From the NCBI GenBank assembly GCA_025774205.1, contig JALGWK010000117.1, positions 1-15,634 of the forward strand: a stretch of DNA of 15,634 nt, read 5' to 3'. How positions within the stretch are numbered: position 1 is the first letter of the stretch; each line of letters opens with the position of its first letter. The translations under genes and the position numbers were made by a program. The notes beneath the pieces were generated by a model, which searched no databases, was not told the origin of the DNA, and worked only from the letters and a program-made list of their open reading frames with translations. Below, in pieces: positions 598-15,634 of the stretch. This stretch comes from a bacterium (GTDB taxonomy: Bacteria; Blakebacterota; Blakebacteria; Blakebacterales; Blakebacteraceae).

Positions 598-1931
598 GCC
601 GTCTCCTCCCGGTCGGTCTGGTTGTGGATGAATTCCGGAATGTAGCCGGTCGTTTCATCGAGGTGCTCGATGAGTTCTGCCGTGCGCTGGAGAAAGCGGG
701 CCGCCGGCGCGCCATCCACGATCCGGTGATCGAAGACCAGGCTCAGGGTGAGCAGTGGTCGGGGGACGATTCCTTCGTCGGTTACAGCCGGTTTCTCCCG
801 GATGCGTCCGATCCCCATGATCGCCGCCTCAGGCGGGTTGATGAGCGGCGTGAATGCGTCGATCCCGAAGGAGCCCAGGCTGGTGACGGTGAAGGTGCCG
901 CCGGCCAGATCATCGGGGAGCGCGGCGCCCTCCCGCGCTCGAGCGATGAGCTCGCGGGCCCTGGTGCAGAAGGTCCGCAGGTCCATCGAACCGGCATCGG
1001 TGATGACCGGTACCAGCAGACCCCGTTCGGTATCGGTGGCCATCCCCAGGTTGATCGGGGCGATGAGTTCGATCACCTCCCGGTCAGCGCTCAGTCGGGC
1101 ATTCAGGATCGGATGCTCCATCAACGCCCGTACCGTGAGGAAGGCAATCAGTTCGGTGTAGCCGGGGGCGAAGCCCCACACCGATTCGAGTCTTTTCAGT
1201 CGACGCCGCGCCTCCCGCAGTTTGAAGGCGTCGATCTCGGTCGTCAGGGTGACAGCGGGTATCGTGCGGGCACTCACTGCCATCCGTTCGGCGATGATGC
1301 CGCGCGGACCGGTCAGGGGAATGGTCCCGGTCACCGGCAGATTGGGTCGGGGAATGCCATCCCCATCGGCCCCGGGACATGGGCCGGCTGCCGCGGCTGC
1401 CAGGACATCGGCTTCCACGATCCGACCTCCCGGTCCCGACCCGGTGAGCCGGGCGAGATCGACCTTGTGGTCGGCAGCCAGGCGACGGGCACGGGGTGAG
1501 ACGGGGAGACGATCGGTTGAGGGAGGGGGTCCGGAGGAATCGGCGGCGCGGGAGGTGTCATCCGCGGGTGACGCTCCAGGTTCGGCCGGCGCTCCGTCAT
1601 CCGCCGGAACCGCGACCTCATCTGACGATGGAACATCAGGTTCGGTTCCCGTGTGCACGGGAGTCGGGCTCCACCCTTCGATCGATTCATCGGCCTCGGT
1701 GGTGATCAGGGCTACCACGGTGAGGACCTGCACCACCTCGTTGTCGTCGACCAGGATCTTCCTCAACCAGCCCCGGCCGGTGGCTTCTACATCGAGGGTG
1801 GCCTTGTCCGACTCCAGCGTGTAGAGCAGGTCGCCCCGCTTCACCTCGTCGCCTTCGGACAGGTACCACTCAACGACCCGGCCCTCTTCCATCGTCTGTC
1901 CGAGTTTCGGCATGATGACTTCGCTGATCAT
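594..1931 (-). CDS. Dihydrolipoamide acyltransferase (E2) of a 2-oxoacid dehydrogenase complex
   Basis: Core E2 subunit, 445 aa, normal length. Domains in order: an N-terminal lipoyl domain (about 1-80) with the lipoylated lysine K43 in ESDKATLDVEA; an Ala/Pro/Asp-rich flexible linker (about 85-140); a peripheral subunit-binding domain (about 143-180, VSPRARRLAADHKVDLARL then GSGPGGRIVEADV); and the acyltransferase catalytic domain (about 203-430) with catalytic H402 and D406 in DHRIVDG. It transfers an acyl group from lipoamide to CoA in the cytoplasm. It starts with ATG at 1931, overlapping the fused E1 stop as ATGA, so E1 and E2 are translationally coupled. The substrate (pyruvate, acetoin or a branched-chain oxoacid) cannot be fixed from sequence; short-linker E2s next to alpha/beta-type E1s include both acetoin and pyruvate types. 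No E3 is present in the window. Confidence 0.95.
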   Translation of the reverse strand: MISEVIMPKLGQTMEEGRVVEWYLSEGDEVKRGDLLYTLESDKATLDVEATGRGWLRKILVDDNEVVQVLTVVALITTEADESIEGWSPTPVHTGTEPDVPSSDEVAVPADDGAPAEPGASPADDTSRAADSSGPPPSTDRLPVSPRARRLAADHKVDLARLTGSGPGGRIVEADVLAAAAAGPCPGADGDGIPRPNLPVTGTIPLTGPRGIIAERMAVSARTIPAVTLTTEIDAFKLREARRRLKRLESVWGFAPGYTELIAFLTVRALMEHPILNARLSADREVIELIAPINLGMATDTERGLLVPVITDAGSMDLRTFCTRARELIARAREGAALPDDLAGGTFTVTSLGSFGIDAFTPLINPPEAAIMGIGRIREKPAVTDEGIVPRPLLTLSLVFDHRIVDGAPAARFLQRTAELIEHLDETTGYIPEFIHNQTDREETA

Positions 1932-4003
1932 CGGAGGACCTCCCTGATGCCGGCGATGACCGAATCGGTGTTCGGGATGGCGGCGTCTTCGAGCGATTCC
2001 GACATCGGTACGGGGACATCGGCGGCGGCTACCCGCACCACCGGCGCGTCGAGGTAATCGAACAGTTCCTCGGAGACGCGGGCCGAGATCTCGGAGAGGA
2101 ACGATCCTGTCCGGCAGGCCTCGGTCACCCCGACAACCCGTCCCGTCTTCTCAACCGAGTCGCCGATAGTCGCCATGTCGAGCGGTTTGAGGGTGCGCAG
2201 GTCGATGACTTCGACCGAGATGTTCTCGGCGGCCAGGCGGTCGGCCGCTTCGAGAGCCCGGTGGACCATGCGGGACCACGTGATGACCGTCACGTCGACT
2301 CCGGAGCGCTTGATATCGGCAACCCCGAAGGGGATGAGATATTCCTCCTCCGGCACCGGTCCCTCCATCCCGTAGAGCATCTTGTGCTCGATGAACATCA
2401 CCGGATTGTCATCACGGATGGCCGCCTTGAGCAGGCCCTTGGCGTCGAAGGGGGTGGCGGGCATCACGACGTGGATGCCGGGGAAGTGGGTCCAGAGGGC
2501 TTCGAGGCTCTGCGAGTGATGGGCGGCGATGCAGCGTCCGGCGCCCCCCTCGGTACGGATGACCATCGGCACGGTGGTCTTCCCGCCGAACATGTACCGA
2601 TTTTTGGCCCCCTGATTGGCGATCTGGTCCATGGCCAGGGGAGTGAAATCCACGTACATGATCTCGGCCACGGGACGGGTGCCGGCCATGGCCGCTCCGA
2701 CCGCCGAGCCGCCGATGATCGCTTCGGAGATCGGCGTGTCTTTCACCCGCTCCGCCCCGAAGGTCTCGAAGAGCCCTTTGGTGACACCGTAGGCCCCGCC
2801 GTAGAGCCCCACATCCTCGCCCATCACGAATACCCGCTCATCCCGCTCCATCTCTTCGCGCAGGGCTTCCTGCAGGGCCTCTCGATAGAGAAGAGTGCGG
2901 ACCCCGGAATCGGCTGACCGGCAGAGGTTCCTCAGGTGTTCCTCGGCGGCGTGGTCCTCCCCGGTCCAGACCGGCAGGGCGTAGACGTCGTCCTCGACCT
3001 CATCGGGAGAAGGGAGGGGGGAGTCGAGGGCGAATTGAGTGGCGCTCTCGATCGCCTGTTCGCAATCGGTTTCGATGGCCTCGATCTCCGCGGTGGTGAC
3101 GAGATCCTGCTCGACCAGCCATCCGGAAAAGGTCGGGATCGGATCGCGGGCCTTCCACTCGGCCTCCTCATCCCGCGTACGGTAGTCGCGCGGATCGGAG
3201 CGTGAATGGCCGTACCAGCGGTAGGTGCGGCACTCGATCAGGGAGGGGCCTTCGCCGGTCCGAGCCCGTTCCACGGCCCGTGAGACCGCGGCCCGCACCT
3301 CGAGGACATCCATGCCGTCGACAACCTCGCCGGGCATGTCGTAGGCACCGGCCCGTTCCGAGAGAGCGGTCCGGGCGGCGGCCGCGGAGAGGGGCACTGA
3401 CATGCCGTAGAGGTTGTTCTCGATGATGTAGATGACCGGCAGTTTCCACAGCCCGGCCAGGTTCAGCGACTCGTGGAAATTGCCGGTACTGGTGGCTCCA
3501 TCACCGAAGAAGCAGAGCACCACCCGGTCGGAACCCTGCTGCTGCTGGGCTATCCCGGCCCCGGTGGCGACCGGGATGTTCCCTCCCACGATACCGGTGG
3601 CTCCCAGGTTGCCCCGTGCGACATCGGCTATGTGCATCGAGCCCCCGCGTCCCCGGCAGTATCCCGTTTCGCGACCGCACAGTTCGGCCATCATCCGGTT
3701 GTAGTGATCCTGCCGTTCCACATTGTCTGCCACCAGACTCACTCCCCGGGCGTGACAGTGACCGTGGCCGCGGTGCGTGCTGGTGATGAGATCGTCATCC
3801 CGCAGGGCTGAGACAGCTCCGACCGCTACCGCCTCCTGTCCAGCGTAGAGGTGGGAGGCGCCCTTGATGATGTTACGGCCGAGCAGGTCGTAGACCCGAT
3901 CCTCGAACATCCGGATCTCCCACATCTGCCTCAGCAGTTCGATGGCTCCATCGCGTGTGATCCCGTGCGTGGCCAGTGCCCCGTCGGCATTATTCACGGT
4001 CAT
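1928..4003 (-). CDS. Fused E1 alpha-beta 2-oxoacid dehydrogenase (thiamine diphosphate)
   Basis: A single 691-aa chain containing both E1 subunits, which are separate proteins of about 330 aa each in most bacteria. Residues ~1-345 are E1 alpha: SHLYAGQEAVAVG, THRGHGH, GRGGSMH, the ThDP/Mg motif beginning GDG at 167-169 and ending NN at 196-197, and the RWYGHSRSDPRDYR loop near 262-275. A linker near 345-365 leads into E1 beta (~366-691): MGEDVGLYGGAYGVTKGL, TPISEAIIGG, EIMYVDF, AAHHSQSLEALW and the C-terminal transketolase-like domain with VIDLRTLKPLD. It decarboxylates a 2-oxoacid and passes the acyl group to E2 lipoamide. It starts with ATG at 4003, overlapping the kinase stop as ATGA. Fused alpha-beta E1s are known in several phyla, so the fusion is uncommon but not new. 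Substrate unresolved among pyruvate, acetoin and branched-chain oxoacids. Confidence 0.95.
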   Translation of the reverse strand: MTVNNADGALATHGITRDGAIELLRQMWEIRMFEDRVYDLLGRNIIKGASHLYAGQEAVAVGAVSALRDDDLITSTHRGHGHCHARGVSLVADNVERQDHYNRMMAELCGRETGYCRGRGGSMHIADVARGNLGATGIVGGNIPVATGAGIAQQQQGSDRVVLCFFGDGATSTGNFHESLNLAGLWKLPVIYIIENNLYGMSVPLSAAAARTALSERAGAYDMPGEVVDGMDVLEVRAAVSRAVERARTGEGPSLIECRTYRWYGHSRSDPRDYRTRDEEAEWKARDPIPTFSGWLVEQDLVTTAEIEAIETDCEQAIESATQFALDSPLPSPDEVEDDVYALPVWTGEDHAAEEHLRNLCRSADSGVRTLLYREALQEALREEMERDERVFVMGEDVGLYGGAYGVTKGLFETFGAERVKDTPISEAIIGGSAVGAAMAGTRPVAEIMYVDFTPLAMDQIANQGAKNRYMFGGKTTVPMVIRTEGGAGRCIAAHHSQSLEALWTHFPGIHVVMPATPFDAKGLLKAAIRDDNPVMFIEHKMLYGMEGPVPEEEYLIPFGVADIKRSGVDVTVITWSRMVHRALEAADRLAAENISVEVIDLRTLKPLDMATIGDSVEKTGRVVGVTEACRTGSFLSEISARVSEELFDYLDAPVVRVAAADVPVPMSESLEDAAIPNTDSVIAGIREVLR

Positions 4004-5493
4004 ACTCCGGTTCCAGTCTGACGTTGGTCTCTGATGGTGAGGTAGCGATCACTGGTGTCATCCCAGGCCGCGTCGGGCGCCGGCACGTATTCCTCCGGTT
4101 CAACTGAATCACTGACGAGAGCCCGTCCCTCGGCCAGCGAGGCGATATCACCCCGGGCGATCGCCTGCACGATGATGTTTCCCATGGCGGTGGCCTCAGC
4201 GGGGCCGGCCAGGACACGCATGCCGGTCGCGTCGGCGGTGAGCCGGTTCAGCAGTCGGTTCCTGCAGCCCCCGCCGATGATATGGATGGTGTCAGCCGTC
4301 CGGCCGGTGAGTTCGGCCAGGACATCGGCTATCCGGCGGTACTCGCAGGCCAGGCTCTCGAGCGCGCAGCGAACGAGCGCTCCTTCATCGGCTGGTTCGG
4401 GCTGGCCTGTCTCGCGGCAGAAAGCCCTCATCCGTGCGGGCATGTCACCGGGCTGAAGGAAGCGTTCATCGCCGGGATCGACGAGGGAACCGAACGGCGG
4501 GGCTTCAGCCGCCAGAGCGGTCAGGTCATCGTACGACCATTGCCGGCCTTCGCGTTCCCACTCCCGCCGGCACTCCTGCACCAGCCAGAGCCCCATGATG
4601 TTCTTCAGCAGCCGGAAGCGGTCACCGACGCCCCCCTCATTGGTGAGGTTGTGTTCCAGGCTCTGCTCGTTGATCACCGGCTCGGAGACTTCAACCCCCA
4701 TGAGCGACCAGGTGCCCGAACTCAGGTAGATGGCGTCGTCGGAGGTGAAGGGCACGGCCGCCACGGCCGAGGCGGTGTCGTGGGAGCCGGGCGCGATGAC
4801 CGGCAGGGGGCCGCAGCCGGTCCGGTCGGCCAGCCCGGGGAGCAGTTCGCCCGGCGGCACGATCGAGCCGAAGATGCCGGTCGGGATCTCCAGTTGTTCG
4901 AGCATCCCGAACGCCCACGACCGGTTGATCGGATCATAGCACTGGCTCGTGGTGGCGATGGTGAACTCATTCACCGTCCGGCCGGAGAGCATCCAGGCCA
5001 GGAGATCGGGCATGAAGAGCAGGCTTTCGGCCCGTCGCAGGGCCTCGGAACCGGTCTTCACCATGGCCAGCAGCTGGAAGAGGGTGTTGAGCTGCATGAA
5101 CTGGATGCCGGTCCGGGTGAAGATGTCGGCCCGTTCGATGACGCGGAAGGCTTCCTCCATCATGCCGTTGGTGCGGGCGTCACGGTAGTGCCAGGGATCC
5201 TCGATCAGGGTGTCGTCGCTGTCGAGCAGGCCGAAGTCGACCCCCCAGGTGTCCACTCCCACGCCGGCGAGCCGGTCACCGAAGCGCTCTCCCGCCACCG
5301 TGAGGCCGGTGATGATCTCGCGCTGGATCCCTTCGACATGCCAGCGCAGGCTGCCGTCCTCTTCTGTCGGACCGTTCGGGAAGCGGTGGAGTTCCTCGAG
5401 CCGGAGGCGACCATCCCGGATCGTTCCGGCCACGACGCGTCCGCTCTCGGCTCCCAGATCGCAGGCCAGCCAGGTGTCCGCGGTTCCCGGCAT
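4000..5493 (-). CDS. rhaB: Rhamnulokinase-type FGGY carbohydrate kinase
   Basis: ATP-dependent sugar kinase, 497 aa, close to the roughly 490 aa of E. coli RhaB. Seen: phosphate-binding DLGAESGR at 12-19; GVDTWGVDFGLLD at 79-91; YRDARTNGM; RTGIQFMQLNTLFQL; GSHDTASAV at 236-244 with the presumed catalytic base D239; LSSGTWSLMG at 258-266; NEGG; LKNIMGLWL; and the C-terminal GGGCRNRLLN at 407-416. These are RhaB-branch signatures rather than xylulo- or glycerokinase ones. RhaB phosphorylates L-rhamnulose at O1 and is known to tolerate other ketoses. No rhamnose isomerase (RhaA) or rhamnulose-1-P aldolase (RhaD) is present; the upstream neighbours are polyol-phosphate dehydrogenases, so the true substrate may be another L-ketose. 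It starts with ATG at 5493, sharing one base with the SDR stop (TGATG). Confidence 0.9.
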   Translation of the reverse strand: MPGTADTWLACDLGAESGRVVAGTIRDGRLRLEELHRFPNGPTEEDGSLRWHVEGIQREIITGLTVAGERFGDRLAGVGVDTWGVDFGLLDSDDTLIEDPWHYRDARTNGMMEEAFRVIERADIFTRTGIQFMQLNTLFQLLAMVKTGSEALRRAESLLFMPDLLAWMLSGRTVNEFTIATTSQCYDPINRSWAFGMLEQLEIPTGIFGSIVPPGELLPGLADRTGCGPLPVIAPGSHDTASAVAAVPFTSDDAIYLSSGTWSLMGVEVSEPVINEQSLEHNLTNEGGVGDRFRLLKNIMGLWLVQECRREWEREGRQWSYDDLTALAAEAPPFGSLVDPGDERFLQPGDMPARMRAFCRETGQPEPADEGALVRCALESLACEYRRIADVLAELTGRTADTIHIIGGGCRNRLLNRLTADATGMRVLAGPAEATAMGNIIVQAIARGDIASLAEGRALVSDSVEPEEYVPAPDAAWDDTSDRYLTIRDQRQTGTGV

Positions 5494-6332
5494 CAGCGCA
5501 TCTCCTGTCCGCCGGTGATGTTCACCGCCTGCCCGGTCATGTAGGCACCTCCGTCAGATGCCAGGAAGGTGATCACCCGGCAGACATCCTCGTAGGTGCA
5601 GCCCCGTTTGAGCGGCACCTGGTCCACGTATCGCTGACGGACCTCGGCTTCGCTGATCCCCCAGCGTTCGGCATACTGGCCGTAGAGAGAGTCGGTCCAG
5701 AGGGGGGAGTCGAGCAGGTTGCCGGGGCAGACCGCGTTGACCCGGATGCCATGTTCAGCCAGTTCGAGGGCCAGGCTCTGGGTCAGCCCGATGCCGCCGA
5801 ACTTAGAGGCGGCATAGGCCGAGTTGCGATAGCTTCCCTTCTTCCCCGACTTGGAATTGACCTGGATGATCACGCCGCCGCCCTGTTCGATCATGACCCG
5901 CGCCGCGGCCCGCGCGCAGAGGAAGTAACCGAAGAGATTGACGTTCATGACGGCGCGCCACTGCTCGGTCTCGAACTCCTCCACCGGGCCGGCGATGAGG
6001 ATGCCGGCGTTGGAGACGAGAAGGTCGAGTCGGCCGAGATCGGTGATGGCGCTATCGATCATCGCGGCCACCTCTCCTTCGTCGGTCACATCCACTCCGA
6101 TCCCCAGCGCGGGACGGCCGGTCGCACTGGTGATCTCTCCGGCGACCCGTTCAGCCCCGTTGGCGTTGAGGTCAGCCACGGCGACGGCGAAGCCCTCCAC
6201 TGCCAGATGGCGCGCGATTGCTTCACCGAGACCCTGAGCCGCGCCGGTGACGAGCGCGACCCTCTCAGCGGTACCGCTCTGTCGGTCGTCAGCAGTCTGA
6301 CCATTGAGGTCAGGAGCCGGTGGTCCGCTCAT
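5493..6332 (-). CDS. srlD: Sorbitol-6-phosphate 2-dehydrogenase-like short-chain dehydrogenase
   Basis: Classical SDR, 279 aa. The cofactor loop TGAAQGLG is at 29-36, NAG at 108-110, catalytic S160 in VNSKSGK, and Y173/K177 in YAASK. Closest recognisable family is SrlD/GutD: the NSKSGKKGSYRNSAYAASKF stretch, FGGIGLTQSLALELAEHGI, GNLLDSP, VPLKRGCTYEDV and the C-terminal GQAVNITGGQ all match the pattern of enterobacterial SrlD. It is expected to interconvert D-glucitol-6-P and fructose-6-P with NAD(H). The start at 6332 is supported by AGGAGG seven bases upstream; the first ~23 residues are an extra polar extension compared with E. coli SrlD, so a downstream start cannot be excluded. It follows the dehydrogenase gene by 40 bp, the only real gap inside the operon. 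A related ketose/polyol pair is possible. Confidence 0.9.
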   Translation of the reverse strand: MSGPPAPDLNGQTADDRQSGTAERVALVTGAAQGLGEAIARHLAVEGFAVAVADLNANGAERVAGEITSATGRPALGIGVDVTDEGEVAAMIDSAITDLGRLDLLVSNAGILIAGPVEEFETEQWRAVMNVNLFGYFLCARAAARVMIEQGGGVIIQVNSKSGKKGSYRNSAYAASKFGGIGLTQSLALELAEHGIRVNAVCPGNLLDSPLWTDSLYGQYAERWGISEAEVRQRYVDQVPLKRGCTYEDVCRVITFLASDGGAYMTGQAVNITGGQEMR

Positions 6333-6339
6333 CGGTGGT

Positions 6340-6345
6340 CCTCCT
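6340..6345 (-). promoter_or_regulatory. Strong Shine-Dalgarno site for the SrlD-like gene
   Basis: On the minus strand AGGAGG lies seven bases before the ATG at 6332. The other operon genes downstream start by stop/start overlap, so this is the one strong independent ribosome binding site in the operon. It could let the intact lower half be translated regardless of the broken genes upstream. Confidence 0.7.
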
Positions 6346-6372
6346 GTCGGAGATGGAGAAGTCGGTGTCCGT

Positions 6373-7833
6373 TCATGTCGGAAGCATCCGTTTCAGGAAT
6401 TCCCGTTCCGCCGCCACCGTCCATTCCCGACCGTCGCGCAGCAGGACGGCAACCTCCGGCATCGATTCCGCCAGTTCGGAGAGGGGAGTCAGGGGGCAGG
6501 CGCGGATGTGAGGATAGATGACGATCTTGCCGGCGAAACGACCATCCCGCACCGCCTCGAGCCCTTCTTTCGCTGCTTCGAGACTACCGATCGCGGCCAC
6601 CGACCGTCCGGTGTCGAGATCGCCCGATTCGGCGCGTTCAAGGGTCAGGCGCATCTCTTCGATGGTCGAGGCCGAATGCCCGATGATGCGGGTATCCCGG
6701 AGCCAGGCATCGCTCAGGTCGACGGCCGCGGTCGTCTCGCGCGGGACACCGGCGAAGATGTTCATGACCCCTCCCGGCGCCAGCAGGAACGCGGCCTCTT
6801 CAACCAGACGGGGTACCGGGGCCAGCACGATGATGTCGTCGAAGCCGGGGCCGTCATCCGCCCCCTCCGCCGGGGCATGGTTCATGGCCTGTTCGAGGCC
6901 GGCCTCGTATGCGGTCCGGTCATCCGGGTTGAGACAGAGGAACGGTATCCCGCGAGAGGTCGCGTCTCCGGCCAGCGATCGCTCCAGGTCGGCCAGGCGG
7001 GGAGCGCTGGTGTCGGTGCCGACCACTATCGACGGCCCCTCAGGGAGTGAGAGTGCCCGCTGGACATGCATGCGTCCCATCGGTCCCCCGGCTCCCATGA
7101 AGAGGGCCCTGCCGCCTGCTCGCAATCCCGAGCGCACCGGCCGGTCGGCATAGACTGCCGCCAGGTCGGGACCGGGACCGCCGATGAAGAGCCAGCGGTT
7201 ATAGTGGATCCGGCCGATGTCGAGCGCCACCGGGCGAACGAGCGGTTCGGCGTCGATCACCGCCATGATCCCGCCCGGGGCCAGGGCCGGGCTCAACCGC
7301 TCGACCAGATCGGCATCGGCGCCCAGCAGGATGATGTCGTCGATACTCTCATGGGCCACGACCGGCTTCTCGTCGGTGGTGGCAACCTCGACTCCGAGGG
7401 CCGCTGCCTGCTCCCGGAGTATGTCCTCGAATCCGGCCGGGACATCGGTGAGAAGGAGGCGGGCGGGGGCGGAACCGCGATCGAGGCCGCGGCTGATCTC
7501 GTAGCCGGTCTCCCGAGCCCGTACCGTGCCATGGATCCAGGTCGTGCCGCCCTTTCTCAGGGTGGTCCGGTAGCGCAGACCGTAGGCGGCGACGACACAG
7601 GCCCATGGTTCGGTCAGGGCGGCCTCGGCGTACCCGGTCGTGGACTGAACGGGGATCAGGTAGCTGCCATCATCGCCATCGAGCACGCGTGAGTCGAGCA
7701 GGGCATACCCGGAAAGACCTCCGCCGATCTCATAGCCGTAGGCATATCCGGTCCCGTCGACGAAGATGTCGGCCTGGAGGGTGAAGCGATCTCCGATCCG
7801 GTAGTTCTCATCGAGTCCTTCCCCGACGGTCAC
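6373..7833 (-). pseudogene. MDR alcohol dehydrogenase, large C-terminal part, with duplicated Rossmann unit
   Basis: A 486-codon open frame holding the rest of the dehydrogenase whose N-terminus is at 7839-8042. It opens inside the catalytic domain (GEGLDENYRIGDRFTLQADI at 4-23, then YAYGYEIGGGLSGY), continues with the TEPWACVVAAYG helix, and has a classical nucleotide loop FMGAGGPMG at 245-253. The family looks like L-sorbose-1-phosphate reductase/SorE-type MDRs. Unusual: two related segments. IDDIILLGADADLVERL plus APGGIMAVIDA (about 164-195) is echoed by FDDIIVLAPVPRLVEEA plus APGGVMNIFAG (about 331-362), each followed by a similar strand pattern ending in IGG/IGH. The protein therefore carries an extra, degenerate Rossmann-like unit before the normal one, and a C-terminal tail of ~45 residues. 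The in-frame GTG at 7833 is a computed start, not a convincing one. The segment holding the GHE zinc motif is missing at the junction with the N-terminal part. Confidence 0.75.
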
Positions 7834-7838
7834 GACTG

Positions 7839-8042
7839 TCAGACCTTGATGTCGGAGAAACAGAGCCCGCAGGCATCGTGACGCACGAGCAGTTCACCCG
7901 GTCCCGGCTTCGGCAGGGGAGCCTCGATCGGCAGCCCGTCACGACCGAGATTACCAAATCCGGCCCCGTAGAGCGGCCACCGCCGGTAGGTTTCGGGCAG
8001 GGGGGTTCGGCCTTCGATCCAGGCCTGGAAACGATCGTCCAT
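7839..8042 (-). pseudogene. MDR alcohol dehydrogenase, N-terminal fragment
   Basis: A 67-codon fragment that ends in CGLCFSDIKV followed at once by TGA. This is the start of an MDR catalytic domain: PKPGPGELLVRHDACGLC leads to the catalytic zinc cysteine (C61 in CFSD). In intact relatives the chain continues through about 25-30 residues, including the GHE zinc motif, before reaching the VGEGL-type segment that opens the next frame at 7833. Here the two frames are only a few bases apart and offset, so the intervening codons are lost and the frame is broken (net loss of 3n+1 bases). The start codon ATG at 8042 shares one base with the PHP stop (TGATG), as expected of a real operon gene. Together the two parts would have made a protein of about 580 residues, against 340-400 for most MDRs. 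Confidence 0.75.
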
Positions 8043-8632
8043 CAGGCCTCCTCATCCCCGCCGAACTCGGACAGCACCGGGCCGGCAACCTGCTGCTTGA
8101 TGGTGTGGTCCCGGACGAACCTGGCGCCGTCGGCGAAGGTCTCCCGCAGCGGTGCCAGGGCGGGTGAGTCGAAATCATCCACGAATTTCTGTCCCGGGCT
8201 GTTCATCTCGGTACCGGCGATCACCGGCAGGTTCCGTTTCCGGGCCGCTTCGACGATGGCGTGGAGATTGTCGATCTTCATTCGGCGCTCCCCGGGATCG
8301 GCCAGGTTCCAGTTGCGGTCGGGGATCACGTTGAGAACCACGATGCCCAGGTCAAGGAGGAGGTCGAGGAATCGGTCGGGGTCGCGCTCACCCTCCGAGG
8401 TGCCGTCGAGCCAGGCCGCGCAGGGCAGTGCGGAGCATTCCTCGATGAAACGGATGAATGTCTCTGCCGGCGGAAAGGTGTCCGGTCCCGGCCTGAGGTA
8501 ACCGATCCCCCCCTGCTTGACGAGTCGGGCGCGAAGCCAGTTCAGGAATCCGGGATCGGAGGCGGTCGACCACGCGGGACCGTCGGGAACATGGGGAACT
8601 CCGGGAATTTTCGGGACTCTCTCCTCCAGCAT
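8042..8632 (-). pseudogene. PHP-domain protein, C-terminal part (frame-shifted by a 44-bp duplication)
   Basis: 196 residues that continue the PHP protein whose N-terminal part is at 8542-9336. Recognisable pieces: GGIGYLRPGPDTFPPAETFIRF, LPCAAWLDGTSEGERDPDRF, an LGIVVLNVIPDRNWN strand and, near the C-terminus, LPVIAGTEMNSPGQKFVDDF. The last resembles a PHP-type metal-site strand (AGTEMN). The ATG at 8632 lies inside the second-read copy of the duplicated unit and would allow a restart only if ribosomes reinitiate. With one copy of the repeat removed, this frame joins exactly to the N-terminal part to give one chain of 416 aa. It ends TGATG with the dehydrogenase gene. Confidence 0.75.
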
Positions 8633-9336
8633 CCCCGACCAGCCGGGGGAATTTTCGGGACTCTCTCCTCCAGCATCCCCGACCAGCCGGTGGCGGGATC
8701 TGCGAATGCCTCCGCGGCGCGGAGGGCATAGGCCTGCACGATATGCCGTTCGGTCGGGGTGGCCGAGGGGGAGAGGGGGAGTACTTCGCAGTCGTAATCG
8801 ATGGCCACTTCCGGCAGGCGGGTATTGATCCGTTCCACCAGGTTCCGGTTGCGGGCCTGGGCTCCTGAACGGAGCAGCTCAAGTGTCGGTCGGGCCGCGG
8901 CGACCGGATCGGTACCGGTGAAGCCGATCCCCACCATGTAGGCCACGCCTGGTTCACCCGGGGAATTGATGACCACGTCGGCCAGTTCAGGCATCCAGAC
9001 CCGGGTCTCGATCCCTGCCGTGCCGTGCACTCCCGCCATTTCGCAGGCAGCCAGGAATTCGTCAACCCCGTCGAGGAGGTCGAAGTCGACCAGGCCCATC
9101 AGGCCGATCCCCTCCCGCCGGGCGATCCAGGCCAGGGCTGAAGGAGAGAATCCATACGCGTTGTAGGAGTGGAAGGAATGACAGTGGAGATTCGAGTCAC
9201 TGGTGAGGGGAGGGCAGGTGAGCACCCCCTCATCGACCAGTGCGAGCAGGGCCTGAAGAGCATGGCTGCGCACCGCCGGATCGAAACTGTTCAGTTCCGC
9301 TTCAAGCTCCCCGATGCGTTCCTCATGCTGCTTCAC
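8542..9336 (-). pseudogene. PHP-domain metal-dependent phosphoesterase, N-terminal part
   Basis: First gene of the operon. PHP enzymes are metal-dependent phosphoesterases; the substrate here is unknown and a sugar phosphate would be a guess from context. After an N-terminal helix (about 1-40) come the PHP metal motifs: LHCHSFHS at 50-57 with H51, H53 and H56, LVDFDLLDG at 82-90, and TAGIETRVW at 106-114 with E110. The start is the GTG at 9336, the only start codon after an in-frame TGA six codons upstream, with only a weak ribosome site. The authentic coding ends near GMLEERVPKIP; the remaining ~35 residues (PAGRGCWRRES onward) are a frame-shifted tail created by a 44-bp tandem duplication, and translation stops at 8542. 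If translation ended here, polar effects on downstream genes are possible. Confidence 0.8.
8603..8690. repeat. Perfect 44-bp tandem duplication inside the PHP gene
   Basis: Two identical 44-base units, 8603-8646 and 8647-8690, each beginning GGGAATTTTCGGGACTCTCT and ending GACCAGCCGG. Forty-four is not a multiple of three, so the second unit shifts the PHP reading frame. Deleting either copy restores a continuous protein. Identity of the copies implies a recent event, or an assembly artefact. Confidence 0.97.
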
Positions 9337-9387
9337 AGTACGTTCCCATCAACAGATCCACAGGCTGCTTCACGGCCCGTTCTCATC
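9327..9387. repeat. Imperfect 24-bp direct repeat at the operon leader
   Basis: GCTGCTTCACAGTACGTTCCCATC at 9327-9350 recurs at 9364-9387 with 20 of 24 bases the same (period 37). The first copy covers the PHP start codon; the second lies in the leader and overlaps one arm of the inverted repeat at 9375-9398. It may be an old duplication of the translation start region or a pair of regulator sites. Confidence 0.6.
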
Positions 9388-9398
9388 CCTGAACGGGC
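9375..9398. promoter_or_regulatory. Perfect 8-bp inverted repeat, candidate operator or leader hairpin
   Basis: GCCCGTTC (9375-9382) and GAACGGGC (9391-9398) are perfect inverted copies separated by 8 bases. It lies about 40-60 bases upstream of the PHP start, inside the predicted leader of the catabolic operon. It could bind a dimeric regulator such as the DeoR protein at the end of the operon, or fold as an RNA hairpin. No T-tract follows on either strand, so a simple terminator is unlikely. Confidence 0.45.
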
Positions 9399-9423
9399 AG
9401 GCTCCCAAGTTCCCCACGCGAGG

Positions 9424-9448
9424 CGGCAGGCCGGTACATACCCTGCCG
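9424..9448. promoter_or_regulatory. 7-bp inverted repeat in the divergent intergenic region
   Basis: CGGCAGG (9424-9430) and CCTGCCG (9442-9448) flank an 11-base spacer. The centre is about 50 bases from that of the inverted repeat at 9375-9398. A regulatory role is suggested only by position between the predicted promoter and the first gene. Confidence 0.3.
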
Positions 9449-9466
9449 GGCCACCTGGTCAGTCAT

Positions 9467-9500
9467 GCACGATAATGTTGTATTTTGCCCGATAATGTGG
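9467..9500. promoter_or_regulatory. Two direct repeats 20 bp apart over the predicted operon promoter
   Basis: GCACGATAATGTTG (9467-9480) and GCCCGATAATGTGG (9487-9500) match at 12 of 14 positions with a 20-base period, about two helical turns, so both would face the same side of DNA. One copy fills the spacer of the predicted minus-strand promoter and the other lies around its expected transcription start, a good place for a repressor. Confidence 0.45.
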
Positions 9501-9510
9501 ATTCAGTCAA
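9482..9510 (-). promoter_or_regulatory. Predicted sigma-70-type promoter of the catabolic operon
   Basis: Read on the minus strand, TTGACT (9510-9505) is followed after 17 bases by CAAAAT (9487-9482): 5 of 6 and 4 of 6 matches to the consensus hexamers. Transcription would begin near 9475 and give a leader of about 140 bases before the GTG at 9336. Prediction by eye only. Confidence 0.4.
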
Positions 9511-9575
9511 GACCGGTCTGTCGTGATTCCAGTTGTGTTCACTGGGACGGGAAAGCTGAGGTGGAGGCGTCTACT

Positions 9576-11810
9576 ATGATGGATCAACAGGTAGGTCATT
9601 ATAAGATCCTCGAAAAGATCGGCTCAGGCGGTATGGGCGAAGTCTGGCTTGCCGAGGATACCCGCCTGGAGCGTAACGTCGCCCTGAAATTTCTTCCTGC
9701 TGAAGCTGTCTCTGAGGAGGAACAGATCCGGTTCATCCGCGAGGCCAGGGCGGCATCGGCCCTCGACCATCCCAATATCTGTACTATCCATGAAGTCAAT
9801 GAGAGCGATAAGGGCCAGACTTATATCGCCATGGCCTACTGTGATGGTGATACGGTCAAAGAGAAAATCGCCCGGGGTCCTCTGACAATCGAAGACGCCC
9901 TCGATATAGCCATACAGACGGGGGAAGGACTCGCAAGGGCCCACAAGGAAGGGATCATCCACCGCGACATCAAGCCTGCCAACGTGATTGTCACAAAGGA
10001 TGGTCTGGCCAAGATCGTCGACTTCGGCCTGGCGAAGCTTTCGGGGTCCACTCAGCTCACCAGGACAGGTTCCTCGATAGGCACGGTGGCCTATATGTCG
10101 CCCGAGCAGGTGCGGGGAGATGAGGTGGATCACAGGGCCGATATCTGGTCACTGGGAGTAATGCTTTATGAGATGGTGACCGGACAGCTGCCCTTCCAGG
10201 GTGACAAAGAAACAGCCGTGATGTATTCGGCTTTGAACGAGGATCCTCAGAGCCTGGTCTCTATTCGGGAAGATATCCCTCGGGGTCTGGAAGAGGTCGT
10301 TGGCAAAGCCCTCGTGAAAGATCTGACCAATCGATACCAGGGCATACAGGAAATGGTTGAGGAACTGAGCAAAATCTCAACCGATGAGACTGGACAACAG
10401 GAGTGGGAGAAATCGATCGTCGTTCTGCCGTTTGAGGATATGAGTCCGGATAAAGACAACGAATATTTCAGTGATGGTCTGACTGAAGAGATCATCACTG
10501 ACCTCTCGAAGATTCATTCCCTGAAAGTTATTTCACGCAATTCCGCCATGACGCTCAAAGGCACCGGAAAGACCACCAAAACTATCGGACGGGAGTTGAA
10601 TGTGCAGTACGTCCTGGAAGGGAGTGTGCGGAAGGCGGGAAATAACCTCAGAATCACAGCTCAGCTCATAGATGCTACAGATGATGCTCACGTTTGGGCT
10701 GAGAAGTACAGCGGAACACTGGATGATGTATTCCAAATCCAGGAGGAGGTATCACGCTCAATAGTCGATGCTCTCAAACTGAAGTTGAGTCCTGAAGAGG
10801 AGCGAAAGATTATTGAGCGACCGACAGATGATATTCAGGCCTACGAAGTTCACCTCAGAGCCCAGTATGAAATGCTGCGTTTAACAGAGGAAGGATTGGA
10901 GCGTGCGCTGCAGCTTATTACGGATGGATTGGATGCCGTAGGTGACAATGAAATCCTGTATGCAGATATGGGGCAGGTATACCTGTGGTATGTTGATGCT
11001 GCGATCAAGAAAGAAGAAAGTTATTTAGACAAAGCAGAAGAATATGCACAGAAGGTGTTTACTCTCAACCCTGAGTCCTCCCATGGTCATCTCCTGAGGG
11101 GATGGATCCATAAGCGACGAGGGAATATTCCGGATGCGGTCAGAGAGCTTCAACAGGCACTCACCATCGATCCCAATAATCTGGCTTCTTTGCAGCATCA
11201 AGCATGGATTCTTATTTCTATGGGCAAAGGAATGGCCGTCAGGCCGTTAGTGGAGAAGCTGGTGGATATTGATCCATTAACTCCCATGAATCATATGATG
11301 GTCGGAGTGAATGAACTGATGGATGGCAAATTCAGCTCAGCCCTTGAACCATTAGGTAAATCTCACCAACTGGATAGGGAAAATCCGATATTCCGGTTCT
11401 GGTATGCCAAGGGATTCGCTTATGAAAGTCGTTATGATGAAGCGTATACACTTCTTAATAGTATTGAACAGGACGCACCACAGACCTTCTGGGCTCAGCT
11501 CAGCGGATTTTTCAGGAATGCGTTACAGGGCAGGAAAAACGAGGCCCTGCAGTCGGTAACGGAAGAATTCAGGAGTCTGATGCGGGAGGATGAGATATTC
11601 CCTCTCTGGATGGCGGAAAGCTATTCCTTGATCGATGAGAGAGATGAGGCCATCAACTGGCTGGAAAGCGGTACGAAGTATGGTTTTATCAATTACCCCT
11701 TTCTCAACGAATATGATCCGTTTCTCGAGAACATCCGCGGTGAGGAGCAATTCAATAAGCTCATGGAACGGGTAAAACATGAGTGGGAGCATTTTGAGGT
11801 CGTGCTCTGA
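9576..11810 (+). CDS. Cytoplasmic Ser/Thr protein kinase with TolB-like (FlgO) domain and TPR tail
   Basis: 744 aa from the ATG at 9576, chosen because GGTGGAGG lies eight bases upstream and the kinase fold starts at once (HYKILEKIGSGGMGEVWLAE at 8-27). An open frame continues upstream to 9465 but looks non-coding. Kinase domain ~8-268: K38 in VALKF, HRDIKPANV from 129 with catalytic D131, DFG at 149-151, activation segment with several Ser/Thr (LTRTGSSIGTVAY), and MSPEQVRG. It has all catalytic residues, so should be active. Next, ~279-405, comes the TolB N-terminal/FlgO-like domain (SIVVLPFEDMSPDKDNEYFS, GLTEEII, YVLEGSVRK, RITAQLIDA, HVWAEKY), then helical TPR-type repeats (~420-744). No transmembrane helix is seen between kinase and tail, unlike many Hanks-type kinases. 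This architecture is known in Acidobacteria and related phyla. Divergent from the catabolic operon; substrates unknown. Confidence 0.93.
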   Translation: MMDQQVGHYKILEKIGSGGMGEVWLAEDTRLERNVALKFLPAEAVSEEEQIRFIREARAASALDHPNICTIHEVNESDKGQTYIAMAYCDGDTVKEKIARGPLTIEDALDIAIQTGEGLARAHKEGIIHRDIKPANVIVTKDGLAKIVDFGLAKLSGSTQLTRTGSSIGTVAYMSPEQVRGDEVDHRADIWSLGVMLYEMVTGQLPFQGDKETAVMYSALNEDPQSLVSIREDIPRGLEEVVGKALVKDLTNRYQGIQEMVEELSKISTDETGQQEWEKSIVVLPFEDMSPDKDNEYFSDGLTEEIITDLSKIHSLKVISRNSAMTLKGTGKTTKTIGRELNVQYVLEGSVRKAGNNLRITAQLIDATDDAHVWAEKYSGTLDDVFQIQEEVSRSIVDALKLKLSPEEERKIIERPTDDIQAYEVHLRAQYEMLRLTEEGLERALQLITDGLDAVGDNEILYADMGQVYLWYVDAAIKKEESYLDKAEEYAQKVFTLNPESSHGHLLRGWIHKRRGNIPDAVRELQQALTIDPNNLASLQHQAWILISMGKGMAVRPLVEKLVDIDPLTPMNHMMVGVNELMDGKFSSALEPLGKSHQLDRENPIFRFWYAKGFAYESRYDEAYTLLNSIEQDAPQTFWAQLSGFFRNALQGRKNEALQSVTEEFRSLMREDEIFPLWMAESYSLIDERDEAINWLESGTKYGFINYPFLNEYDPFLENIRGEEQFNKLMERVKHEWEHFEVVL

Positions 11811-11828
11811 TCGGCATGTTCCTTCGGG

Positions 11829-11858
11829 TTGACGGTGATGCAGGACTCGACGTAGTAT
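11829..11858 (+). promoter_or_regulatory. Possible promoter for the SnoaL-like gene
   Basis: TTGACG (11829-11834) and TAGTAT (11853-11858) with an 18-base spacer match 5 of 6 and 4 of 6 consensus bases. It lies in the 134-base gap after the kinase gene. Weak: the gap may also be crossed by read-through from the kinase. Confidence 0.25.
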
Positions 11859-11944
11859 GACTCGCTGCCCACCCATCTACGCCACAATGTTATATATCGA
11901 CTGTTGTCAGCTACCACATCTGTATCGACCGGAAGGACTGAGTG

Positions 11945-12328
11945 ATGAGCACAGAAACACGTACTGCCATTGAAGCGGTTGATAACGCATTCATGACCAT
12001 GTTCGGCAACGGTGATGCTGCCGGCATGGCGGGACTCTACACACCTGATGGGCAGCTTCTACCGCCAAATAGTGACTTTGTTACCGGACAGGAGGCGATC
12101 CAGGTATTCTGGCAGGTTATTTTGGATATGGGACTGACGGGAATCAGGCTGGAGACAGCCGAGCTTACCGATTTCGGTGACACTGCTCTTGAAATCGGGC
12201 GTTACACTCTGTTCGCCGGGGATGACAACATCGCAGATTCCGGCAAGTACGTTGTTTTCTGGAAGAACCAGGACGGCGAATGGAAGTTGCATCAGGACAT
12301 GTGGAATACAAGCGCTCCAGCGGAATAG
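11945..12328 (+). CDS. SnoaL-like / DUF4440 NTF2-fold protein
   Basis: A 127-aa cytoplasmic protein, no signal peptide or membrane segment. The pattern is typical of small SnoaL-like/DUF4440 proteins: an N-terminal helix with ...AIEAVDNAFMTMF, the GDAAGMAGLYTPDGQLLPPN segment, a GQEAIQVFWQ helix, and C-terminal strands ending in YVVFWKNQDGEWKLHQDMWN. The NTF2 fold is used by ketosteroid isomerases, polyketide cyclases and many binding proteins, so the family does not give a reaction. The start is ATG 11945, seven bases after GGAAGGA; a GTG directly before it (11942) is the alternative. It follows the kinase gene on the same strand and may be co-expressed. No partner can be named. Confidence 0.85.
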   Translation: MSTETRTAIEAVDNAFMTMFGNGDAAGMAGLYTPDGQLLPPNSDFVTGQEAIQVFWQVILDMGLTGIRLETAELTDFGDTALEIGRYTLFAGDDNIADSGKYVVFWKNQDGEWKLHQDMWNTSAPAE

Positions 12329-12367
12329 TGACTTAGCAGATTTCCTGACAGGTTGTAGTCGGTAACA

Positions 12368-12410
12368 TGCTCATCTGCTCTGAAAAGTAATATTATTCGT
12401 CAGGTGAGCA
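12368..12410. terminator. Hairpin between convergent genes, possible terminator
   Basis: TGCTCATCTG (12368-12377) can pair over ten bases with CAGGTGAGCA (12401-12410), with one G-U pair on the plus strand and a 23-base AT-rich loop. It lies between the convergent SnoaL-like and REC-histidine kinase genes. The lack of a clear T-tract and the large loop make it a weak intrinsic terminator; the rest of 12329-12448 shows nothing else. Confidence 0.3.
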
Positions 12411-12448
12411 GGTCTTTATCAGTGGGTTAAGGGGGCTAGCTTATACTA

Positions 12449-13588
12449 TTAATCGCCCTCCTGCTTCGGCAGAGTGCACATAAAACGGCTTCCCTTGCCC
12501 AAAGTACTTTCGACCCGGATTTTCCCTCCGTTTTTCTCGATAAATTTCTTGCACAATATCAATCCCAGGCCGGTGCCTGTTTCCTCTGACGTTCCCCTGG
12601 TTGTATAGTGAACATCTATCCTGAACAGTTTTTCAATGTCATCTTTTCCCATACCGATACCTGTGTCAGATATGATCAGTTCAACAAATTCGTCGGAGTC
12701 CCGGGCTGATATCCTTACCTCCCCGCCGTCAGGAGTATATTTCAGTCCGTTTGATATCAGATTTCTCACTATTATGTTTATCATGTTCTCATCTGCATAA
12801 ACAAATGATGGCTTTTTGATCTCTGAATGCAGACGCACGTTCTTCTTCAGGGCTGTATCATTTAATATCTCTATATTTTCTTTAACTATATTACGTATAT
12901 CTATTTTACACGGACTCCACTGAATCTGTCCCGTCTGTGATCGTGCCCATTGTACAAGGTTCTCCAGTAAGTTGGAGGCTTGTTTTGTTGAGTCGAATAT
13001 ATGCTGAACAATTTCTTTAATTTTCTCTTCTTCATATTTATCATAGTTCAATAATAATAATTGCGAAAAACCGATCAAAATATTGAACGGATCCTTCAGA
13101 TCATGGTGTACAATAGAAAAAAACCTGTCCTTTGCCGCAATTGCTTCGCGCAATTGTTGTTCTTTCAATCTCAATGATTCATGGGAATGTTTCAGGTCCA
13201 GATGGGTATTAACCCTGACCAGTAATTCCTTTGCATTAAACGGCTTTGTTATGTAATCGACTGCCCCCAGTTCAAATCCCTTGATAATGTCATCTGTTTC
13301 TATTTTGGCAGTAAGAAATATGATTGGAATATCTTTGGTGTCGGGGGACTCTTTCAGGCGCTTACAGGTCTCGAAACCATCGAGTTCAGGCATCATTATA
13401 TCCAGCAATAGTATGTCCGGTTTTACCTCCTCTACAGCACTGAGAGCTTCCAACCCATTTCTGGCGACAGATATCTGGTAATTCTCCTTCATCAGTATCG
13501 ACCCTAATACCTGGATATTCTGCTGGGTATCATCAACAATCAGTATCATAGAATTGTGTTTGTCGAATCCCGCTGTCGTATCAGTCAT
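12449..13588 (-). CDS. REC-histidine kinase (receiver domain fused ahead of a kinase core)
   Basis: 379 aa, soluble. An N-terminal receiver domain (~13-133) has acidic residues D19/D20, phospho-acceptor D63 in LLDIMMPELDG, T93 and K115 (TKPF). A short helical linker leads to a HisKA domain with FFSIVHHDLKDPFN (156-169; presumed phospho-His H162), then HATPase_c (~230-375) with N280 in NLISNGLKYTP, DTGIG at 308-312 and GTGLGL at 338-343. No sensor or membrane domain: its input is phosphoryl transfer to the receiver, so it probably works downstream of the hybrid kinase encoded 59 bases upstream. The start ATG at 13588 has GAGGT upstream. The output partner is not in the window. Two-component proteins with this REC-first layout are common in environmental bacteria. 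Confidence 0.95.
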   Translation of the reverse strand: MTDTTAGFDKHNSMILIVDDTQQNIQVLGSILMKENYQISVARNGLEALSAVEEVKPDILLLDIMMPELDGFETCKRLKESPDTKDIPIIFLTAKIETDDIIKGFELGAVDYITKPFNAKELLVRVNTHLDLKHSHESLRLKEQQLREAIAAKDRFFSIVHHDLKDPFNILIGFSQLLLLNYDKYEEEKIKEIVQHIFDSTKQASNLLENLVQWARSQTGQIQWSPCKIDIRNIVKENIEILNDTALKKNVRLHSEIKKPSFVYADENMINIIVRNLISNGLKYTPDGGEVRISARDSDEFVELIISDTGIGMGKDDIEKLFRIDVHYTTRGTSEETGTGLGLILCKKFIEKNGGKIRVESTLGKGSRFMCTLPKQEGD

Positions 13589-13647
13589 TACTTATTACCT
13601 CAATGCAACATTAATTATCAGGGATAATGATCTCATAAGCTCTACGT

Positions 13648-15318
13648 CTACTCTGAAATATGTTTCTTGATAGCATGGATCAGTCCAGGCAGTTCTTCGA
13701 GTGTTTCGTGAACTTTATCGAGATCAAACATTGTTACATGCTTCTGGAGGAGATTAACCCATGATGTGAAGGGGGCATATTCATGTTTATTGCTTAACTC
13801 GAGGTTCCGCCGGGTAAAGTCGCTGATATCTGTTATTACAGAGCTGTTTTTGAGTTCCTCCCAGATCGGATGGATCTCTGTTTCCAATATCTGAGCCAGT
13901 TCCGGCAGATTTTCTAAAGCAGTGTCAGAATGGACTTCACTCGATGTCACCCCCTCAGGTTCGAGGGATTCAGAAACGGCTGGTACAGGCTCTGGTTCTG
14001 CCACAGTATGGTCCAGGAACTTCATCAGCTCGGCAACCAGATCCATTTTGCTTACCGGTTTTCGCAGGTATCCGTCGCATAATTCCCGGATTGCTTCTTC
14101 TGATTGCTTCATTACAGCAGCAGTCAGCGCAATAACCGGAATGTTACCTGTTTCAGGAGTTTCTTTGCTTATCTTTGCAGCTTCATATCCATCCATAACG
14201 GGCATTTTCATATCCATAAGCACAAGGCCTGGCTTATGTATCCTGATACATGCCAGTGCTTCCTCTCCATTCTCAGCTTCGAAAATGGTAAAATCGTACG
14301 GTTCCAGATATCCGTTTACCAGATTACGGTTAATGGCTACATCATCGACTACCAGGATGGAGGCGTGGTCAAAGACTACTGATTCCACGTCGATTCCCAG
14401 TTCGCGCTCCAGCTCTGATTTTGAAACCGAAGCGACATCAACATGTTTCAATACAACGTTGAATGTACTGCCTTTCCCCACCTCACTCTCGACCGATATT
14501 TCGCCCTTCATCATCTCAATGAGCTTTTTTGTAATGGCCAGGCCGAGTCCCGTCCCTCCGTACTGGGCGAAGCTCTGTCCTTTCTGTTGTTCAAAAGCGT
14601 CAAAGATCTTTTCCATCTGATCCTCCGGTATTCCAATACCGGTATCTGCAATTGAGAAAACCAGGTCCAGTTTGCTCCGGTCCTCTTCCGGGTACCGATT
14701 ATAAACCGAGAGCTTTATATATCCCCCATCGGTGAATTTCACAGCGTTTCCCACCAGATTAAGGAGAACCTGCCGCATACGTACTTCATCGAGGATAAGC
14801 ACGCTCGGCAGGCTCTCATCGATATCAATGATAAAATCGATGCCTTTATCTCTGATCCGTTGCGAAAAAACATGCTTCATTTCCAGGAAAACTGATTGCA
14901 CATCGACGGCCTCATATTCGAGTTCCAGTTTGCCCGTCTCCACCTTGGTCAGGTCAAGGATATCATTGATCAGTCCCAAGAGAGATTTACCACTGGTCTG
15001 GATAGCTGAGAGATACTCCAGGTGCTGTTCGTCATCAATCAAACCGCTCAGAATTTCTGTAAAACCGAGTATCGCATTCATGGGTGTTCGTATTTCGTGG
15101 GACATATTTGCCAGGAAGATACTCTTGGATTGATTTGCTTCTTCTGCTGCCTCCCGGGCTATATCAAGCTCACGGTTCGTTGCTTCAATTTCCTCGTGCA
15201 AGGTCTGGAACAGCCACCTCTGCTCCAGCAATACTCGATTCTCTTTAAGCCTCTCAAATTCATGCTTAAGTACCCGCAGTTCTTTCTGCAGTTGTTTTAT
15301 CTGATCGTCGGCCGACAT
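13648..15318 (-). CDS. Hybrid sensor histidine kinase, FIST-associated (NahK/VpsS-like arrangement)
   Basis: 556 aa, no membrane segment and no PAS domain. A charged coiled coil (~5-66) precedes HisKA with FLANMSHEIRTPMNAILGF (68-86; phospho-His H74), HATPase_c (~170-292; N191 in NLVGNAVKFT, D225 in DTGIGI, GGTGLGL at 254-260), and a receiver domain (~319-437; D325/D326, phospho-acceptor D369 in LMDMKMPVMDG, K420 in RKPV). The last ~95 residues (ELAQILETEIHPIWEELKNS... FDLDKVHETLEELPGLIHAI) form a helical segment often found after the receiver in such kinases; it has no evident HPt phospho-histidine motif. It starts with ATG at 15318, sharing one base with the FIST stop (TAATG), so the two are coupled. 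With no sensor domain of its own, the FIST protein is the likely signal input. Confidence 0.95.
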   Translation of the reverse strand: MSADDQIKQLQKELRVLKHEFERLKENRVLLEQRWLFQTLHEEIEATNRELDIAREAAEEANQSKSIFLANMSHEIRTPMNAILGFTEILSGLIDDEQHLEYLSAIQTSGKSLLGLINDILDLTKVETGKLELEYEAVDVQSVFLEMKHVFSQRIRDKGIDFIIDIDESLPSVLILDEVRMRQVLLNLVGNAVKFTDGGYIKLSVYNRYPEEDRSKLDLVFSIADTGIGIPEDQMEKIFDAFEQQKGQSFAQYGGTGLGLAITKKLIEMMKGEISVESEVGKGSTFNVVLKHVDVASVSKSELERELGIDVESVVFDHASILVVDDVAINRNLVNGYLEPYDFTIFEAENGEEALACIRIHKPGLVLMDMKMPVMDGYEAAKISKETPETGNIPVIALTAAVMKQSEEAIRELCDGYLRKPVSKMDLVAELMKFLDHTVAEPEPVPAVSESLEPEGVTSSEVHSDTALENLPELAQILETEIHPIWEELKNSSVITDISDFTRRNLELSNKHEYAPFTSWVNLLQKHVTMFDLDKVHETLEELPGLIHAIKKHISE

Positions 15319-15634
15319 TACTCTGATCCGATAAATACAGTTAGAAATGTATTATTGTGAAATCTGGTTGGTTTGCCCCGGTTAAGAGGCCCTATCTCAC
15401 CATAAGTATAAAATCCCGCTACCGGGAGGTCGGGGAAATGGCTTTTCAGGATTTGGTATTCTTCTTCAACCCTCGTCCCCAGTACCTGCTTACGTGCCAT
15501 ACATGAAAAACAGATGGCCAGTGACGGTTTCGACCCGGGATAATCAGCTATTGCCGAATCAACCGACATTTTTGCCCCTTCTACGATGTTGTCTCTGGTT
15601 GAATGTGTCATCTGAACTGTAGCGCCCTCAGGAA
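15318..15634 (-). CDS. FIST-domain sensor protein, 5'-partial (C-terminal FIST_C)
   Basis: The last ~105 codons of a gene that enters from the right edge; the frame is open at the edge (PEGATVQMTHSTRDNIVEGAK precedes what could look like a start at 15611, so that ATG is internal). FIST_C signatures are clear: LAICFSCMARKQVLG, RVEEEYQILKSHFPDLPVAGF, FYTYGEIGPL and TRFHNNTFL. FIST (F-box and intracellular signal transduction) proteins are cytoplasmic ligand sensors; the NosP members bind heme and nitric oxide and regulate a histidine kinase encoded next door. The N-terminal FIST domain is outside the window, so ligand class cannot be judged. Start/stop coupling with the hybrid kinase gene supports a sensor-kinase pair. 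Confidence 0.9.
   Translation of the reverse strand, partial: PEGATVQMTHSTRDNIVEGAKMSVDSAIADYPGSKPSLAICFSCMARKQVLGTRVEEEYQILKSHFPDLPVAGFYTYGEIGPLNRGKPTRFHNNTFLTVFIGSE

Follow-up and report, generated by a model that had tools for sequence, protein, structure and literature searches.

The window, the whole 15,634 bp stretch of DNA analyzed here (bases 1-15,634 of contig C372), derives from a metagenome-assembled genome that is 86% complete and comprises 3.09 Mb on 527 contigs. At its right end we identified three genes, all on the minus strand, that encode a partial FIST protein, a soluble hybrid histidine kinase and a histidine kinase that begins with a REC domain (defined as "REC-kinase"). 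Every domain of the three proteins scored above its curated Pfam cut-off, most by far, so the gene identities are not a matter of chance. The FIST gene is represented by its last 104 codons and stop codon (15318..15632), and this fragment matches FIST_C with 70 bits (2.8e-19; cut-off 28.5 bits). Direct reading of the junction (...GGATCAGAGTAATGTCGGCC...) revealed that the TAA stop codon of the FIST gene (15320-15318) shares a nucleotide with the ATG start codon of the hybrid kinase gene (15318-15316), and the two form a TAATG overlap (15316..15320). The REC-kinase gene follows after a gap of 59 nt (13589..13647) in which no promoter-like or terminator-like site was listed; over the whole region, promoter-like sites showed no excess relative to shuffled sequences. 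The next gene encodes a DUF4440 protein (11942-12328) and is convergent. Thus, the operon ends with the REC-kinase, and the output regulator is not visible in it.

The hybrid kinase (556 amino acids, 13648..15318) has HisKA, HATPase and REC domains with their catalytic residues. The HisKA domain (14926..15138) carries the phospho-accepting H74 in an HEIRTP motif, and is followed by the HATPase domain (14455..14790) and a REC domain (14029..14358) with D325/D326, the phospho-accepting D369 and K420. Neither a Pfam sensor domain nor a membrane-like segment was detected in this protein (the maximum hydropathy over 19 residues is 1.35). The coordinates, the junction and the Pfam results thus agree with a preliminary description of this DNA, in which a FIST gene is coupled by TAATG to a soluble hybrid kinase that has no sensor domain. 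Beyond the REC domain is a C-terminal tail of 124 amino acids (13651..14022), not mentioned in that description, which matches no Pfam domain, Hpt included. The REC-kinase (379 amino acids, 12449..13588) has a REC domain (13211..13546) with the phospho-accepting D63, as had been described, and HisKA and HATPase domains (12461..13135) with H162 in an HDLKDP motif and both the N and G boxes; all of its domains exceed their cut-offs.

A scan of our collection of loci (numbered L) identified the nearest complete relatives of the FIST fragment in L124, from Gemmatimonadetes (54% identity over the fragment), and L125, from Mcinerneyibacteriota (50%). Directly downstream of the L124 FIST gene is an ortholog of the window hybrid kinase, full length including the tail (475 bits, 46% identity). 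Because L124 combines both relatives in this way, we consider the FIST protein and the hybrid kinase to be conserved as a pair. In a tree of 69 FIST proteins, the window FIST, whose sequence covers only 27% of the columns, groups within a clade of 15 rows (support 99) that is apart from the clade of the NosP proteins (support 98). Along with L124 and L125, its members include proteins from Gemmatimonadota, Acidobacteriota, Cyanobacteria and rhodobacteria.

The genes downstream of other FIST genes encode a plain kinase, a hybrid kinase, a class III cyclase or a GGDEF-EAL protein. Alignment revealed that the kinases and cyclases encoded after FIST genes of the window clade share an N-terminal coil of ~45 residues (KEIRILKKKLERSExxRxxLE...), which we refer to as element A. 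We built a profile from 13 of these partner enzymes, leaving out those of the window and L124, and searched 8,927 open reading frames (ORFs), a set that is enriched in FIST loci but also includes thousands of other ORFs along with many kinases. The only confident matches were genes directly downstream of a FIST gene, including three that were not among the seeds (L127, 3.9e-13; L149, 2.8e-11; L124, 1.7e-7). Five kinases belonging to the large FIST clade were used to define a distinct element of ~70 residues (element B). At E<1e-3 its profile returned 61 proteins, every one of them encoded directly downstream of a FIST gene, and among them were GGDEF-EAL, GGDEF-HD and cyclase proteins. No Pfam or NCBIfam model matched either element above its cut-off, and 38 of the 111 FIST-downstream ORFs have neither. 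In the window, residues 1-50 of the hybrid kinase (15169..15318) form an N-terminal coil that we interpret as a diverged copy of the putative element A, with its core at residues 7-33. This copy scored 12.7 bits against the profile, a value equalled or surpassed by one of the 1991 shuffles that were scored.

Given these distributions, the clade-specific N-terminal elements are probably the docking sites for FIST proteins. According to a 2022 review, little is known of substrate binding and signal propagation by FIST proteins (PMC8846402). For the question of how a stand-alone FIST protein regulates a second enzyme, elements common to otherwise unrelated partner enzymes offer a concrete putative binding site. 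Such elements would also allow the partners of FIST proteins to be recognized from sequence alone.

Among the window-clade FIST proteins, those of L128 (6319-7182), L142 (6318-7160) and L138 (6325-7173) are paired with class III cyclases. The linker of the L138 cyclase matches the HNOBA (heme-NO-binding-associated) coil just above the cut-off, and this FIST-cyclase pair is possibly an analogue of soluble guanylate cyclase. At L143 (3572-5833) a FIST protein and a SpoIIE-type phosphatase domain are joined in a fusion, and the stretch between the two contains a weak copy of element A (E about 2).

The tail of the hybrid kinase had no match in the PDB at the sequence level. An AlphaFold model, based on an alignment of two sequences, predicts a helical bundle, with a predicted local distance difference test (pLDDT) score of 76 overall and ~79-91 over the last 85 residues. 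Its best match among solved structures is the histidine phosphotransfer (HPt) domain of E. coli YojN (Foldseek probability 1.00, VIA Z 11.6), and the HPt domain of a Shewanella hybrid kinase, HptB and the HPt domains of BarA and ArcB are also high in the list (Z 9.5-11.6), although unrelated helical bundles can also reach the Z values of 10-12 seen for the HPt-like matches, which counts against the assignment. The position of the tail after the REC domain fits an HPt-like fold. In combination, the model and its fold matches are suggestive of an HPt-like bundle. We located the presumed phosphorylation site by manual comparison with the HPt motif. Histidine is absent from this site in all 13 homologous tails (the window protein has R503), and we rejected the tail as an active HPt domain on these grounds. 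A search of the 86% complete genome for HPt domains found none, whereas the same search was positive in 8 of 14 control genomes. Given both results, a histidine-dependent relay inside the hybrid protein is unlikely. What is new here is a hybrid kinase whose tail is modeled as an HPt-like bundle that lacks the phospho-histidine.

Hybrid kinases with this tail recur without a FIST gene. A search of 386 genomes with a profile of the tail returned 26 matches in 16 genomes. Directly downstream of 17 of the 26 is a gene for a REC-first protein, which is a REC-kinase in 11 cases (the window included), a number that is inflated because most of the tails used for the profile came from near REC-kinases. 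The remaining REC-first proteins are REC-GGDEF, REC-LuxR or REC-PAS proteins, or could not be resolved. Viewed from the other gene, close homologs of the window REC-kinase are encoded directly behind hybrid kinases at L258 (twice), L259, L265 and L266, and about half of its 20 nearest homologs directly follow a hybrid or other kinase. Our survey of 47 REC-kinases identified 10 with a hybrid kinase gene no more than 100 nt upstream, five of which have the same tail. We conclude that a tail-bearing hybrid kinase with a downstream REC-first protein is a recurring module that is independent of FIST, and the observations are consistent with the REC-kinase filling the slot of a cognate response regulator.

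Four tail-bearing hybrids were scanned for domains and have PAS or other N-terminal sensor domains, whereas the window hybrid lacks such a domain and follows a FIST gene. The hybrids of the window and L124, in a kinase tree with many weak branches, nest among the FIST-free tail-bearing hybrids, and the other FIST-partner hybrids fall outside. We therefore rejected the idea that the window hybrid shares a lineage with the other FIST-partner hybrids, and the tree suggests that the FIST pairing of this hybrid probably arose separately.

REC-kinases also occur beside other FIST genes, upstream of FIST in L126, L130 and L136 and in the same order as in the window in L161. The L161 locus (5119-8690, Clostridium puniceum) encodes a FIST protein, a kinase and a REC-kinase, and is an independent recurrence of the arrangement, as its FIST protein belongs to another clade and its kinase is of the plain type. 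A constant association of REC-kinases with FIST operons was rejected based on the neighborhoods of the other FIST genes.

Taken together, we consider it reasonably probable that FIST proteins serve as interchangeable sensor subunits and attach to their effectors (kinases, cyclases and cyclic di-GMP enzymes) by means of short clade-specific N-terminal elements. A dedicated docking module would then be present on the kinases that the NosP literature regards as "sensorless". In NosK, ~130 N-terminal residues have been noted to lack a recognized sensory domain (PMC12570481). The window operon would be a case in which a FIST protein is plugged onto a pre-existing cascade from a hybrid kinase with a histidine-less HPt-like tail to a REC-kinase.

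For this operon we infer the docking, the direction of phosphate flow, the sign of control, the ligand and the output as follows. The FIST protein would bind a small ligand and, by docking on the coiled coil at the N-terminus of the hybrid kinase, would set the autokinase (perhaps also the phosphatase) activity of that kinase. Phosphate from H74 could pass to D369 in the hybrid's own REC domain, which would act as a sink or brake, and could also reach D63 of the REC-kinase in trans. Phosphorylation of D63 would gate the autokinase activity of the REC-kinase, with inhibition as our best guess from the behavior of ExsG, and the REC-kinase would signal to an unlinked response regulator. The histidine-less HPt-like tail would have a structural or docking role and no relay step. 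The hybrid kinase has the phosphatase-type motif HEIRT (cited in PMC12570481), and the HDLKD of the REC-kinase, which lacks the T/N, fits a kinase-biased enzyme. We judge the chance that the operon is FIST-controlled in this way, with the hybrid regulated via its N-terminal coil and phosphorylating D63, to be slightly better than even. If so, the kinase-to-REC-kinase step and the tail would make it a compact system for studying kinase cascades that operate without an HPt relay.

Phosphate transfer from kinase to kinase, as had been proposed for these genes, is plausible by analogy, given that REC-kinases recur downstream of tail-bearing hybrids and that such steps are established in other systems. 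In Agrobacterium, BphP1 phosphorylates Asp62 of ExsG, the phosphorylated REC domain inhibits the ExsG autokinase, and ExsG phosphorylates ExsF (PMC3899027). That system likewise encodes a soluble kinase together with a REC-first kinase, but ExsG is an HWE kinase whereas the window REC-kinase is of the HisKA type, and BphP1 is a phytochrome whereas the upstream kinase in the window is a hybrid that we propose to be FIST-controlled. In the CheA3-CheS3-CheY3 system of Rhodospirillum centenum the second kinase is also REC-first; the N-terminal REC domain of CheS3 is phosphorylated by CheA3 (PMC3868531), and CheS3 then signals to a single-domain regulator, a scheme that for the window is a proposal. 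The upstream kinase there is of the chemotaxis type and has no FIST partner, unlike that of the window. Transfer from a kinase to the REC domain of another kinase also occurs from GacS to RetS (PMC5992135). The term "phosphorelay" in the strict sense is doubtful for the window, as the tail has no histidine and the search of the 86% complete genome returned no HPt domain.

Several observations weigh against the proposed control of both kinases by the FIST protein. The FIST gene is truncated by the contig end, leaving the N-terminal three quarters of the protein outside the contig; the L124 ortholog has a FIST_N domain, and a search for this domain elsewhere in the 86% complete genome found none. 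The window copy of element A is diverged, and with a second profile that included L124 the window hybrid was not among the best rows listed; its assignment therefore depends mainly on orthology with L124. Among 13 tail matches that were fetched independently of the REC-kinase search, a REC-kinase adjoins one and another REC protein adjoins five. Finally, there is no REC-kinase beside the FIST-hybrid pair of L124, so the pair does not require the third gene.

The last of these points also favors an explanation in which the REC-kinase is a neighbor with its own input and the hybrid kinase acts on other targets, with no phosphate transferred from one kinase to the other. REC-kinases are also found away from hybrid kinases, and the 59-nt gap separates genes that do not overlap. 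However, the REC-kinase gene is on the same strand and is the last before the convergent gene, and the order of hybrid kinase and then REC protein recurs in several families. We regard separate signaling by the two kinases as unlikely, if still deserving of consideration.

In the preliminary description, the operon was compared to a NosP-type pair that senses NO through heme, to which a REC-kinase has been added. The gene arrangement is indeed of the same kind. Like the NosP-NahK and NosP-NosK-NosR systems (P. aeruginosa, L. pneumophila, B. pseudomallei), the window has a stand-alone FIST protein beside a soluble kinase that lacks a recognized sensor domain, and like VpsV (V. cholerae NosP) with VpsS it combines FIST with a cytoplasmic hybrid kinase. 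The FIST proteins NosP, V. cholerae NosP/VpsV and CdpA have been reported to bind heme or NO (PMC12570481, PMC8846402, PMC11237717). In addition, H92 of the window FIST, in an FHN motif, is conserved in the window clade as well as in the largest clade of FIST proteins.

Family placement points the other way. The NCBIfam equivalog model for NosP (NF041558, cut-off 450) did not match the window FIST fragment, and the nearest complete relatives score 85-102 bits (L124, 95 bits; L125, 102 bits), far under the 472-602 bits of strict NosPs identified by the same model. The L124 genome encodes a second, separate FIST protein that is closer to NosP (223 bits). The hybrid kinase scores 174.8 bits against the NahK/ErcS model (NF041832, cut-off 400) and is of the HEIRTP class rather than NahK/ErcS. 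Moreover, two residues of the NosP clade are not conserved in the window clade. Alignment column 290 is His in three of three strict NosPs and in 75% of a wider set of 12, but Gly in 93% of the window clade; column 409 is Cys in all NosPs with letters there, but Gly in L124, and Gly is also the commonest residue of the window clade. Both columns are conserved in the NosP clade but are not established heme ligands, and the corresponding residues of the window protein lie beyond the contig end. The visible operon also differs from the NosP-NahK and NosP-NosK-NosR systems in encoding a REC-kinase and no cyclic di-GMP regulator. By family model and by clade, the window FIST falls outside NosP, and a NosP/NahK-type sensor pair at this locus is therefore unlikely, though these placements do not refute heme or NO binding.

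We compared FIST with solved structures by sequence and obtained no true match. The predicted structure of the L124 FIST (5155-6306) is confident (pLDDT 95.5). It matches the fold of FBXO22 and, more weakly, those of the Toblerone-fold cyanuric acid hydrolase and barbiturase, a hint from modeling of a link between FIST and the Toblerone fold. None of these matches gave a hint of the ligand.

A further explanation concerns the host rather than the function of the operon, and is compatible with the others: the segment could be foreign to this genome through a binning or assembly chimera, with the host misassigned. GC content falls from ~65% (window positions 1-9000) to 40-47% (12-15.5 kb), whereas other loci of the genome are at 54-62%, and a search of the one genome available from the same genus did not detect a FIST. 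However, the decrease is gradual, spread over 3 kb and crossing intact genes, and horizontal transfer is an equally good explanation for it. We thus consider positions 9000-15634 as possibly either a horizontally acquired segment or part of a chimeric contig, and misassignment of the host as rather improbable. A classical multistep relay, in which a free HPt protein would carry phosphate from the hybrid REC domain to either the REC-kinase or some other regulator, is very unlikely: NahK does signal via HptB, and the HPt protein LuxU is the phosphate exchange partner of VpsS, but in the window genome the HPt search described above was negative and the hybrid's own tail lacks the histidine at the presumed site.

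Adjoining the convergent DUF4440 gene, on the plus strand (9465-11810), is a gene for a serine/threonine kinase with TPR repeats at its C-terminus. At lower coordinates in the window we noted a perfect 44-nt tandem duplication (8603-8690). Its length is not a multiple of three, and the minus-strand coding region at this position is divided into two overlapping ORFs (8042-8632 and 8542-9336). This gene looks frameshifted, with either the duplication or an assembly error as the cause.

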